A stretch of 36,942 nt of DNA from Bacillota bacterium (lineage in GTDB: Bacteria > Bacillota > Limnochordia > Darwinibacteriales > DTU012), in the NCBI GenBank assembly GCA_012521185.1, contig JAAYMV010000054.1, positions 1-36,942 of the forward strand, in the 5' to 3' direction. Under the pieces are notes generated by a model that saw only the letters and a program-made list of their open reading frames with translations, did not search any database and was not told the DNA's origin. How positions within the stretch are numbered: position 1 is the stretch's first letter; every line of letters starts with the position of its first letter. Made by a program: the position numbers and the translations under genes. Below, piece after piece: positions 4,797 to 16,437 of this stretch.

Positions 4797-4822
4797 AAAA
4801 TCCCCCAGAACAGGGGGATTTT
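4797..4822 (-). terminator. Rho-independent terminator between trxA and lpd
   Basis: A 10-bp stem (AAAATCCCCC/GGGGGATTTT on either strand) with a 6-base loop lies just after the trxA stop. The minus-strand 3' arm runs into a T-rich tract reaching 4794. It should end most trxA transcripts, so the bkd genes downstream would depend on read-through or another promoter. Confidence 0.88.
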
Positions 4823-4828
4823 ACTGTA

Positions 4829-5149
4829 TTAGCCAAGATGCTCGTCTAGCTTGTCTACTAATTGAGCCTTTGGAGCAACTCCAACCATTTGATCTACAAC
4901 TTCACCATTCTTAAAGATTAGCATTGTTGGAATACTCATGATTCCATACTTGCTGGCGGTAGCTGGATTATCATCTACATTTAGTTTACCAATTTTGGCT
5001 TTGCCTTGATACTCACTAGCCAATTCATCAATAATTGGACCAACCATCCGACAAGGGCCACACCAAGGTGCCCAAAAATCTACTAATACAACTCCTGAAT
5101 CATCTAGTACTTCTGTATTAAAATTCTTATCAGTTAACTCTACGGTCAT
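4829..5149 (-). CDS. trxA: Thioredoxin
   Basis: This is a 106-residue thioredoxin with the active site WCGPC (C30, C33), the cis-proline segment SIPTM and the usual ending. It reduces protein disulfides in the cytoplasm with electrons from thioredoxin reductase, whose gene is not in the window. The start is ATG 5147-5149, 8 bases after AGGAGG; a TTG two codons upstream is less well placed. The gene has its own promoter, whose -35 box overlaps the stop codon of the upstream methyltransferase gene and whose spacer contains a CsoR/CstR-like operator. It is followed at once by a terminator and then by lpd, an unusual neighbour that suggests redox-linked control. Confidence 0.96.
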   Translation of the reverse strand: MTVELTDKNFNTEVLDDSGVVLVDFWAPWCGPCRMVGPIIDELASEYQGKAKIGKLNVDDNPATASKYGIMSIPTMLIFKNGEVVDQMVGVAPKAQLVDKLDEHLG

Positions 5150-5189
5150 TTGCAAAACCTCCTATTTCAAATAACTTTTACCTATCTCT

Positions 5190-5218
5190 ATATTATACCC
5201 CCCACAGGTATATGTCAA
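5190..5218 (-). promoter_or_regulatory. trxA promoter with CsoR/CstR-like operator
   Basis: TTGACA (5213-5218) is followed by TATAAT at 15 bp (5192-5197) or TAATAT at 17 bp (5190-5195). The spacer holds ATACCCCCCACAGGTAT (plus strand, 5195-5211), of the form ATACCCC-N5-GGTAT. The same pattern recurs at 15604-15620. From memory it matches the Bacillus CsoR copZA operator on one strand, so a DUF156-family repressor is a reasonable inference. Confidence 0.6.
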
Positions 5219-5943: not shown

Positions 5944-6090
5944 TTTTTATGCTCATTCCTTTCCCGAGCTTTTTGGCCGATATTTTTACGAAAAGAATAC
6001 AAGATAAAGAAGGAAATTTGTGCTATTCGTAGAATTTATAGAAAAAGTTTAAGAGAAAAACCATAAATACTAGGGAAAGGTGGATCATTA

Positions 6091-13465: not shown

Positions 13466-14719
13466 CTAGGCGCCATCATATATTCGTTTTTCACCGGAAA
13501 TTTCTTGTAATGGCTTAATATTTTGCGTTACTTCCAGGGTTCCCATGTATTCACCATTATCATCATATAATGCAAAGTAACGAATATAAACAAACATATC
13601 TTTTACTGGCAGCCAAAACTCAGCAGAATCACGCTTTTTAGTTTTAAAATCATTAAGGATATCTTCAACAATATTAACACTTGAAGGAGGATGACAGTTT
13701 TGTACATGACGGCCAATTACTGACCGAGTGCGTTGGAATATTCTTTCCTTACCTTCAGTAAAGAAGCGAACTCGATCATCCTTGTCAACAAATGTGACAT
13801 CAAGCTGCAAGTTATTAAAAATAGCTACGATCTCTTCTAAGGACAATAGTCCGCTTGGTAAGCGCAATAAGCCCTCAGGTGTTGCACTTGCGACTTCTTC
13901 CTCGACAGATTGATCCCGCTCTGCTTTATAAGTTCCGAAATTTCCTTCAACTAAGGTAAAACCTACTTCTGGACTATCTGCAGAGATTTTTTCCCATTCA
14001 TCAGCTGTTAATGTTTCCATGCACATTGGAAATAGAATATTTTCCTCTTTGTAGATCATTTCCGAGATGGCATGAAGAGCAGGTTTTACTAAATCACCTA
14101 TTTTACTAATTAAAGTTCGATCTGCTAGCCGATCAGTAGTTTCTAATAATTGCGAGATTTCTTTTAATTGTCCGCGGATTTCATCATGAATACCCCACAT
14201 TACTGAGGGCGGTCCTGTAATACCATTTTTCTCTAAAAATGGAAAGAGAATGTTTTCCTTACGTAGATAGTGATTATCAATAGTTAAAAGGTCTCTATGT
14301 AATTCTTTCCAACGATTAAGTTGCTCACTAATATCTTCTCCAATTTTTGCTTCAGTGATTTCCGCTAAGATACTCTCAATTTGATCAAGTACATTAGTAA
14401 TAGCTTCATTTTCCATTTTAAACACATTAACTGGATGTTCTGCTTGTTCACTTTTAGCCATAGCCTCATCAAATTGTTTATCTAAGGACTCTCTAAAAAC
14501 TGCAACGTGAACGTCACACAATTCTTGAATCTCTTCTACAGGCAGACCCTCATTAATTAGTGCTTGCTCTAATTCTGAGATTTCTGTAGCCCCTACCTGA
14601 TCCAATAATTCTGCAAAACGTTGTTTAATGTCCTCTGGATCATGGCCAGCATGTAAATCACGAATAATACTTTTTAAGATTTCTTGTCGGTGCTCTCTAT
14701 TGTTAATTAATTCGCTCAT
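13466..14719 (-). CDS. DUF438 – hemerythrin (HHE) – PAS domain protein
   Basis: This cytoplasmic protein of 417 residues has three recognisable parts. An N-terminal helical DUF438 domain covers about 1-80. A hemerythrin-like four-helix domain covers about 95-240, with candidate iron ligands in HPVNVFKMEN, DNHYLRKENILFPFLE, WGIHDEIR and KEENILFPM. A C-terminal PAS-like domain covers about 290-405 (VDKDDRVRFFTEGKERIF...GRHVQNCHPP). This architecture is known in anaerobic Firmicutes and is thought to sense oxygen, nitric oxide or a related signal through a di-iron centre, but the output is unknown since no catalytic domain follows. It has its own promoter. A DUF2249 gene, often linked to this family, is found separately at 20.1-20.3 kb. 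Confidence 0.86.
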   Translation of the reverse strand: MSELINNREHRQEILKSIIRDLHAGHDPEDIKQRFAELLDQVGATEISELEQALINEGLPVEEIQELCDVHVAVFRESLDKQFDEAMAKSEQAEHPVNVFKMENEAITNVLDQIESILAEITEAKIGEDISEQLNRWKELHRDLLTIDNHYLRKENILFPFLEKNGITGPPSVMWGIHDEIRGQLKEISQLLETTDRLADRTLISKIGDLVKPALHAISEMIYKEENILFPMCMETLTADEWEKISADSPEVGFTLVEGNFGTYKAERDQSVEEEVASATPEGLLRLPSGLLSLEEIVAIFNNLQLDVTFVDKDDRVRFFTEGKERIFQRTRSVIGRHVQNCHPPSSVNIVEDILNDFKTKKRDSAEFWLPVKDMFVYIRYFALYDDNGEYMGTLEVTQNIKPLQEISGEKRIYDGA

Positions 14720-14844: not shown

Positions 14845-15576
14845 TCATGCTATTCTCTCAACAGATTCAAGCGAAAGCAGCCTTAATGGACAGTTATCTA
14901 CACATACACTGCATTTTATACAAGCTGCATTACTAAATACCCCATGTTGAATAATTTCTTGATAAGGTACTAACTGCATCGGACAGACGCTAGCACAAAG
15001 ACCACATTCCCGGCATTTGGCAGGTTCACTCATGGTAATTTTCTTTTCTGATTTTTTGTTTATTCCTAACTTCTTCCCTAACTGATATGCAATGGACTGC
15101 ATAGTTCCCATCGGACAAAAAGTACACCAAGTTCTTGGATTAATGGTAAATCCAAGAAGTAAGCCGATAATTGTAGGCATTAAATAGTTCATAGAAAAAA
15201 TCGAACCTAATTTATCCCAGAAATCATAAGTACCGCGTAATCCTAACACATTAAATAATCTGAGACTGAACATAGTCATAAAAAAGATAAAAAAGATTGC
15301 TCGCCATGGTAAGCTTCTAAAAACCTTAGGAATCCTTTTCAATGGTGCAATTGGCAAGATTACATAATCAAACAAACTAGCATGAGGACATAAATTCCCG
15401 CACCAATATTTACCATTAAAAAGGCTTAAACCAATTAATAAAAGCATAATAGGGATTAATAATAGACCTAGCTTTGGATAAAATAATCCCCCTACTGCTA
15501 TCAGCAAAACCATTAACCAAGAGTATTTTTTAATTGGTGAAAAAACACGATTGACCTTCCTAAATTTAATCGGCAT
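14845..15576 (-). CDS. Membrane-bound 4Fe-4S protein (NapH/YccM-like)
   Basis: This protein of about 243 residues has four or five hydrophobic segments and four cysteine clusters. Two membrane-proximal pairs, CGNLCPHAS and CTFCPMGTMQ, are of the NapH/NosR type. Two C-terminal ferredoxin motifs, CRECGLCASVCPM and CIKCSVCVDNCPL, should bind two 4Fe-4S clusters on the cytoplasmic side. Relatives pass electrons across or along the membrane, often to metal-containing reductases or for metal-centre maturation. There is no operon partner, so the acceptor is unknown. ATG 15574-15576 is 8 bases after AGGAGG; an ATG two codons upstream is only 2 bases away from it. The promoter is overlapped by a CsoR/CstR-like operator, pointing to copper or sulfane-sulfur control. 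Confidence 0.8.
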   Translation of the reverse strand: MPIKFRKVNRVFSPIKKYSWLMVLLIAVGGLFYPKLGLLLIPIMLLLIGLSLFNGKYWCGNLCPHASLFDYVILPIAPLKRIPKVFRSLPWRAIFFIFFMTMFSLRLFNVLGLRGTYDFWDKLGSIFSMNYLMPTIIGLLLGFTINPRTWCTFCPMGTMQSIAYQLGKKLGINKKSEKKITMSEPAKCRECGLCASVCPMQLVPYQEIIQHGVFSNAACIKCSVCVDNCPLRLLSLESVERIA

Positions 15577-15603
15577 TGACATTACCTCCTTGTATTATAC
15601 CCT

Positions 15604-15620
15604 ATACCCCTATTAGGTAT
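15604..15620 (-). promoter_or_regulatory. CsoR/CstR-like operator at the Fe-S protein promoter
   Basis: ATACCCCTATTAGGTAT (plus strand) has the form ATACCCC-N5-GGTAT and is identical outside the five central bases to the element in the trxA promoter. It starts at the end of the -10 box, so a bound repressor would block initiation. Confidence 0.6.
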
Positions 15621-15648
15621 TATATGGGATAATTACGGTTAATGTCAA
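15619..15648 (-). promoter_or_regulatory. Promoter of the membrane 4Fe-4S protein gene
   Basis: TTGACA (15643-15648) and TATAAT (15619-15624) are separated by 18 bp, a near-consensus SigA promoter reading toward the minus-strand gene. The leader is short, about 35 bases. Confidence 0.75.
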
Positions 15649-15728: not shown

Positions 15729-16004
15729 ATGTACCAAACCTATCAAGAAACTACACAAGGACGAGTCAACGAACCACCGAAAACAATAACCAAGAAAGAT
15801 TTATTGTACCTACAGGATGCTTTGTCTTGGGAGTTATTAGCTTGCAAAAAAGCCAATCATTTTGCTGAAGAATGTCAAGATCCGAAACTCAAAAAATGTC
15901 TCGTGGAAATCGGAAAAAGGCATCAACAAAATTATCAGGTGCTATTAAATCACGTTCAACCTCAATTTGCTCAGCAACAATACAATCAATTTAGCCAAAT
16001 CTAA
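15729..16004 (+). CDS. Small spore coat-associated protein, CotF-like
   Basis: This 91-residue protein consists of a predicted helical hairpin (about 21-78, KKDLLYLQDALSWELLACKK...KRHQQNYQVLLNHV) with a Gln/Asn/Tyr-rich tail (FAQQQYNQFSQI). This arrangement is seen in small ferritin-like coat proteins encoded next to CotF in spore-forming Clostridia. ATG follows TAGGAGGGATTTA. It is cotranscribed with the next gene, 16 bases away, which has an almost identical ribosome binding site (TAGGAGGGATTTT). I see no convincing SigK promoter; CATAGACA near 15700 is only a weak match. Assignment as coat protein is by resemblance and context. Confidence 0.7.
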   Translation: MYQTYQETTQGRVNEPPKTITKKDLLYLQDALSWELLACKKANHFAEECQDPKLKKCLVEIGKRHQQNYQVLLNHVQPQFAQQQYNQFSQI

Positions 16005-16020
16005 CACTAGGAGGGATTTT

Positions 16021-16437
16021 GTGAATCAAAATTATCAGCAACGATATCCATCACAACCACAATATCAGCAACAAAACCAATATCAACAGTCGAATCAATA
16101 TCAAACAAATAATTTTTCTCAAGCAAAAAGTACACAAATGAGTGATAGAGATCGAATCAATGATATGCTAGCGACCGAAAAGCATTTAACCGATGCTTAT
16201 AATGTTTTTGTACGGGAAGCTAGCCATCGTGAGCTATATCAAGACACTTTGCAAATTCTAAATAATACCCATCAATCAGCTCGCGATTTATTTAATGAAA
16301 TGTACAGCCAAGGCTGGTATAACGTTCAGGCTGAAACAGCCCAAGAAGTCGCAAAAGTACAGCAAAAATTCTCCAATTATCAAACACAACTTCCAAACAC
16401 AAATAGTTTCCAAACTTATCAAAATCAAATCTATTAG
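16021..16437 (+). CDS. Spore coat protein CotF family with Q/N/Y-rich N-terminus
   Basis: This protein of 138 residues starts at GTG, 5 bases after GGAGGG. The open frame extends further upstream through the previous gene, but there is no initiation signal there. Residues 1-45 or so are dominated by Gln, Asn and Tyr with repeated YQQ/NQYQ units. The rest (SDRDRINDMLATEKHLTDAYNVF...ETAQEVAKVQQKF) matches the CotF domain, a ferritin-like helical bundle found in the spore coat of Bacillus and Clostridia. A bidirectional terminator follows directly. Confidence 0.82.
   Translation: MNQNYQQRYPSQPQYQQQNQYQQSNQYQTNNFSQAKSTQMSDRDRINDMLATEKHLTDAYNVFVREASHRELYQDTLQILNNTHQSARDLFNEMYSQGWYNVQAETAQEVAKVQQKFSNYQTQLPNTNSFQTYQNQIY

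Follow-up and report, generated by a model that had tools for sequence, protein, structure and literature searches.

Two G-tract palindromes in the window, by which we mean the whole stretch of 36,942 nucleotides analyzed here, are probably operators of a copper-sensing CsoR encoded on contig C41 of the same genome, and the thioredoxin gene and NapH-like gene that they precede would form the redox arm of a copper regulon. The operators, the promoters, their conservation, the membership of the regulon and the signature of the sensor are all read from sequence. In the following, G000 denotes the window's own genome and other G numbers the genomes of relatives, while L and C numbers denote loci and contigs.

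Operator copies and promoters in the window

An exact search of the whole window for the pattern ATACCCC-N5-GGTAT yielded exactly two copies, at positions 5195-5211 and 15604-15620, as the sequence-only reading had counted, and none of 400 dinucleotide-preserving shuffles of the window contained a match. Both copies are intergenic and each is placed on a TTGACA promoter, which bears out the statement that they lie on promoters and outside genes. They had also been called identical, which is true of the pattern but not of the copies, as they differ in their central bases and have in common the symmetric core ATACC-N7-GGTAT. Both sites fit the rule for type 2 CsoR operators, TAC-X9-GTA in an inverted repeat around G-tracts. 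The features at the two sites are as follows.

4797..4822, minus strand: intrinsic terminator between trxA and the downstream lpd/2-oxoacid dehydrogenase genes (10-bp stem and T-run)
4829..5155, minus strand: trxA, thioredoxin (TIGR01068, 135 bits against a cut-off of 96.8; PF00085)
5190..5218, minus strand: trxA promoter TTGACA-17-TAATAT from a promoter scan, with the operator within the -35/-10 spacer
5195..5211, no strand assigned: CsoR-type operator ATACCCCCCACAGGTAT on the trxA promoter (exact match, conserved at trxA)
14845..15582, minus strand: gene for a NapH/COG0348-like polytopic membrane protein of 245 aa (Pfam Fer4_5 and Fer4 domains)
15597..15613, minus strand: weaker half-site ATAGGGGTATAGGGTAT, overlapping the 15604 operator (one-mismatch match)
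15604..15620, no strand assigned: CsoR-type (type 2) operator ATACCCCTATTAGGTAT on the NapH-like promoter (exact match, conserved in orthologues)
15619..15648, minus strand: sigma-A-type promoter TTGACA-18-TATAAT of the NapH-like gene (promoter scan, 12/12 consensus bases)

The operator at 15604 abuts the -10 box of the NapH-like promoter with an overlap of 2 bp, and this promoter, which had been described as near-consensus, is a perfect one. The half-site at 15597..15613 is possibly a second predicted CsoR contact. At the other site, the ATG at 5149 matches the orthologues and is a likelier start of trxA than that at 5155.

The genes surrounding the two sites were rejected as further targets. 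Co-transcription of the lpd and 2-oxoacid dehydrogenase genes with trxA was dismissed in view of the strong terminator in between. The neighbor of the NapH-like gene, which encodes a DUF438-hemerythrin-PAS protein (13466-14719, minus strand), has a strong TTGACA-18-TATCAT promoter of its own that lacks the operator. Two small genes, the second with a Coat_F spore-coat domain, are divergent from the NapH-like gene (15729-16437, plus strand); they were dismissed as the true target because the site abuts the NapH-like promoter and different genes are found there in relatives.

Published CsoR operators have the form TAC-X9-GTA around G-tracts, with the consensus ATATACCCCTNAGGGGTATAT in S. lividans (PMC3902906), and the operator at 15604-15620 matches this consensus. 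In the relative G007, the site of the NapH-like gene, GTACCCCCTAGGGGTAT, is letter for letter the CsoR operator of S. lividans copZA1.

The loose core ATACC-N7-GGTAT is not over-represented in the whole 2.11 Mb genome (five sites against four for the reversed control), and a genome scan that allowed one mismatch gave 93 matches against 94 for the control, which is uninformative except for the sites of csoR and copZ. The full-genome motif scan that had been suggested as a check thus showed no excess of the loose core but gave further sites on the promoters of csoR and a CopZ-like gene. Since the loose frame shows no genome-wide excess, function is argued here from placement, conservation and co-targets. 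The loose-core count would also agree with the two window copies being chance matches that have no regulatory role. We give this reading practically no weight, as the shuffles did not yield even one exact copy, both copies sit on strong promoters, and their conservation at the same genes in relatives already contradicts it. Further exact or near-exact sites in G000 were discarded, four of them because they fall within coding sequence (L001, L004, L005, L009) and two because they have no backing from conservation (L008, L010).

The DUF156 regulator and its sites in relatives

G000 contains one DUF156 gene, located on contig C41. Its product keeps the full Cu(I) Cys-His-Cys signature together with the Tyr residue (YC...HTRNC, that is, Tyr-Cys...His-x3-Cys), and its closest solved structure is that of Geobacillus CsoR (E 4.5e-26). 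A CstR would have two sensor cysteines without the CsoR histidine, which is present in this protein. The csoR promoter holds ATACCCATACCCTGTAT between the -35 and -10 boxes, as expected of an autoregulated gene, and variants of this autoregulatory site occur in family f1. On contig C56, a CopZ-like gene has ATACCCCCATGGGGTAG just after TTGACA/TATAAT. Because the operator is found on all four promoters, the predicted regulon of G000 consists of csoR, copZ, trxA and the NapH-like gene. The sequence-only reading had named metal or sulfur stress as the signal; copper is favored over this general reading in G000, since its sole DUF156 protein carries the full Cu(I) signature and the operator also lies on the CopZ-like gene and on csoR.

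A CPC-type CopA with an operator was not found in G000, the genome being 98.24% complete, and this counts against copper. The P1B ATPases of G000 comprise a CadA-like pump, whose gene adjoins an ArsR gene, and a pump of the CPG type. The latter (contig C120, L325:104-2539) is followed by a gene for a separate HMA protein and preceded by a small gene, and it lies outside the operator regulon. Contig C120 also contains a recurring palindrome, GCACCC-N5-GGGTGC (L325:5870-5886, 6002-6018 and 6069-6085), which is found on contig C56 as well (L326:22-38) and is possibly a repeat family.

Most of the genomes compared are drafts, so the absence of a gene is weak evidence. Among 11 relatives with a strong orthologue of the NapH-like protein, the palindrome lies just upstream of the gene in nine, in one of them as a 16-bp variant. 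The two exceptions are G014, in which the protein is fused to a reductase, and G045, in which the gene starts at the contig end. Site positions upstream of thioredoxin orthologues were tallied by hand in 61 genomes, and the site precedes trxA in 32 of the 37 that belong to the same order (G000 included) and in none of the 24 from other orders. An exact search of the 61 genomes with ATACCCNNNNNGGGTAT returned 72 sites, as compared with seven for the reversed control. Conservation of the motif, the failure of which had been named beforehand as a refutation, is thus upheld at both genes. In related orders, copA is preceded by the same operator pattern.

For tests of upstream regions, 80 NapH-like loci were taken from GTDB genomes, and a scoring matrix was built from eight NapH-like sites, namely that of the window and those of seven relatives. 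Scores of at least 12 were obtained in 34 of 79 NapH-like upstream regions and in 9 of 1,482 background stretches, with the limit that locus L252 is the matrix-training genome G002 and hence not independent. Cultured organisms with the site at their NapH-like gene include Dethiosulfatibacter aminovorans, Lutispora thermophila, [Clostridium] ultunense and Clostridium homopropionicum. A G-tract inverted repeat of 15-19 bp is present within 130 bp of the matched start at 43/80 NapH-like loci, against 29/1,535 controls. The NapH-like sites are mostly located about 40-90 bp ahead of the start.

Three groups, here called classes A, B and C, can be told apart among the relatives' DUF156 proteins in a tree that was built from 85 columns and has many unresolved forks. 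Class A, to which the protein of G000 belongs, has 33 members in the order and forms a clade with support 90/97. Class B clusters with CsoR of M. tuberculosis and is mostly encoded in copA-copZ-csoR operons, and class C clusters with SpCstR. Four relatives (G002, G003, G012 and G015) have one DUF156 gene each and no class B; each of them has the operator or a variant of it ahead of copA, and G002, G003 and G012 also ahead of copZ, so class A is able to serve as the copper regulator. Many relatives have a second DUF156 gene, of class B, that takes charge of the copper genes, and in most genomes with class B the trxA site stays with class A, a division of targets that would count against copper as the class A signal. 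Class A proteins that occur alongside class B have often lost the second-shell Tyr, and in four genomes the ligand His, which may represent a ligand change under way and would likewise count against copper. In three of the four genomes without the His, the trxA operator is intact (examples of altered class A proteins are L179, L169, L173 and L147).

The class A gene of family f3 is itself without the operator, as might be the case if the sites belonged to another regulator family and their likeness to CsoR operators were convergent. That reading is very improbable in view of the near identity to proven CsoR operators (PMC3902906), the autoregulatory, copA and copZ sites in genomes with a single DUF156 gene, and the existence of operons that join DUF156 and NapH-like genes. 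The proposal that a single regulator of the CsoR/CstR family acts on thioredoxin and the NapH-like gene is well supported by these comparative data.

The NapH-like membrane Fe-S protein

The NapH-like protein contains two Cys pairs in its membrane domain (C61/C65 and C153/C156) and two C-terminal [4Fe-4S] motifs, and all 12 of its Cys residues are invariant among 34 homologs. The membrane Cys motifs and the two [4Fe-4S] motifs are those expected of CcoG. The AlphaFold model is confident (pLDDT 87.5); a fold comparison of this model with the PDB gave nothing at E 0.001 or better, and ferredoxin domains were the sole matches when the sequence was compared with solved structures. The protein scores 18.8 bits with the CcoG model TIGR02745 (cut-off 316.7), and 41.5 and 48.4 bits with the NapH models TIGR02163 and NF007013 (cut-offs 213 and 234, respectively). 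With scores this far under both sets of cut-offs, it belongs to neither family by the model test, and its distance from CcoG would count against copper.

The protein resembles the NapH quinol dehydrogenase subunit in its overall layout, a Fer4_5 membrane part followed by two ferredoxin motifs, but differs from it in falling under the NapH cut-offs and in that no partner nap or mau genes were seen among the window genes near it. With the CcoG/YccM cupric reductases it shares a polytopic membrane protein architecture, membrane Cys motifs, two [4Fe-4S] clusters and a link to copper handling. In contrast to these, it is too short for the C-terminal Ig-like domain, there are no cytochrome oxidase genes near its gene in the window, and the proteins of its relatives are often fused to a reductase. 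NapH-like proteins of at least 450 residues are encoded at 47 of the 80 GTDB loci. At L245 and about 46 other loci, and at L035 (G014), the NapH-like domain continues at its C-terminus into a ferredoxin-reductase region of the FAD/NAD(P)H-binding kind, which gives fusion proteins of about 490 aa. The FAD/NAD-binding region of the fusions makes NAD(P)H a plausible source of electrons.

The related membrane Fe-S protein CcoG is a cupric reductase, and sensitivity to copper increases when it is lost (PMC7558416). By analogy, a CcoG-like role as a cupric reductase under the control of CsoR is reasonable for the NapH-like protein, and the main alternative role would be the reduction of sulfane sulfur or disulfides. 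It is a possibility, if a doubtful one, that the NapH-like proteins, many of them with a fused FAD/NAD(P)H reductase part, are widespread but unrecognized NAD(P)H-driven membrane oxidoreductases (cupric or persulfide) for soft-metal and sulfane-sulfur stress, controlled by DUF156 regulators across Firmicutes and beyond and with thioredoxin as their cytosolic partner.

Copper and sulfur as signals

In the copper mechanism that we favor for G000, apo-CsoR would bind the G-tract palindrome and block transcription, positioned either across the -35/-10 spacer (trxA, csoR) or just past the -10 box (NapH-like gene, copZ). Cytosolic Cu(I), or a thiol-reactive mimic acting at the sensor cysteines, would take CsoR off the DNA through the Cys-His-Cys site, and more CsoR, CopZ-like chaperone, thioredoxin and NapH-like membrane Fe-S protein would be made. 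Thioredoxin would restore and buffer thiols, while the Fe-S clusters of the NapH-like protein would carry electrons at the membrane, where it plausibly reduces Cu(II) like CcoG or keeps copper and thiol systems reduced. NAD(P)H would be the likely ultimate donor, given the reductase fusions in many relatives. CsoR binding, the response to copper and the reductase activity of the NapH-like protein are inferences.

The regulon may instead answer reactive sulfur, in the form of persulfide or polysulfide, with the DUF156 protein acting in a CstR-like manner through two cysteines and with thioredoxin and the NapH-like oxidoreductase clearing sulfane sulfur and protein persulfides. The co-occurrence of NapH-like genes with DUF156 regulators, which the sequence-only reading had put forward for checking, was found as shared operons in some lineages. 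At L299 (3687-6782) and L302 (3683-6779), an operon of trxA, a NapH-like/FAD-NAD reductase gene and a CstR-like DUF156 gene that lacks the CsoR His is divergent from trxB, and the intergenic region contains ATACCCTACGGGGTATGGTA and ATACCTCCCTAGGTAT, one operator at each end. In the tree, the DUF156 products of L278, L301 and L302 cluster with SpCstR, and in L278 and L301 the NapH-like gene is paired with the CstR-like gene. In operons that contain both a NapH-like and a DUF156 gene, the regulator is CstR-like, which would count against copper and keeps sulfur stress a live rival. The operator also lies ahead of a two-gene YeeE/YedE (Sulf_transp) pair in G012 (L202), G014 (L203), G020 (L231) and G027 (L232). 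The class A proteins that stand beside a separate copper CsoR, with their retained trxA site, frequent loss of Tyr and occasional loss of His, point in the same direction. For G000 we consider a sulfur signal unlikely, as its sensor retains the Cu(I) signature, the operator is present on the CopZ-like gene, no Sulf_transp (YeeE/YedE) protein was found in the genome, and the single-DUF156 relatives place copA (4/4) and copZ (3/4) under a similar site.

Two further arrangements were observed in relatives. In G002 (L227), G014 (L224) and G016 (L204), the operator is placed ahead of two genes for a split ArsP_1-like permease, and CstR-like DUF156 genes are located directly beside a thioredoxin gene in G039 (L188) and G049 (L183).

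The CsoR regulons of B. subtilis are also induced by polysulfanes (PMC6943732), an observation that favors sulfur but also means that copper and sulfur signals need not exclude each other. Copper is favored as the signal in G000 on the basis of its sequence features, and a sulfur-responsive version of the regulon probably exists in other lineages.

The predicted regulon shares with the CsoR copper regulons of B. subtilis, S. lividans, Listeria and gut Firmicutes a Cys-His-Cys DUF156 repressor, a type 2 operator that overlaps the promoter, autoregulation, a CopZ-like chaperone as target and, in close relatives, copA as target. In gut Firmicutes, the published CsoR meta-regulon (Hobbs et al. 2016; PMC4938975) comprises csoR, copA, HMA proteins and membrane proteins of the DUF2318/DsbD_2 type. 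It does not include trxA or the NapH-like gene, which are among the targets predicted here, and copA was not found in G000. The likeness to CstR persulfide regulons, such as that of S. aureus, lies in the protein superfamily, the style of the operator and the CstR-like/NapH-like operons of some lineages. However, the regulator of G000 has both the His and the Tyr of CsoR and does not cluster with SpCstR, and no YeeE/YedE (Sulf_transp) gene was found in the genome.

A literature search, with most subscription journals outside its coverage, returned no paper that brings together CsoR, copper, 4Fe-4S binding and anaerobes. The suggestion of an undescribed system stands for the membership of trxA and the NapH-like gene, which appears to be new to the literature covered, and less so for the remainder, as both the operator and the type of sensor are already known. 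The finding is a new regulon make-up and not a new mechanism. The operator wiring of trxA and a membrane Fe-S gene, conserved across many anaerobes, suggests that the copper response has a redox arm of which little is known. If true, thioredoxin and a membrane Fe-S electron carrier would join the CsoR copper response of anaerobes, and the widespread, uncharacterized NapH-like family would gain its first regulatory handle. The reductase fusions, together with the exchange between CsoR-like and CstR-like regulators at the same genes, offer a testable link between copper and sulfane-sulfur stress. Since bacterial Cu(II) reduction is poorly known, a copper-regulated family with a CcoG-like architecture would be a useful set of candidates.
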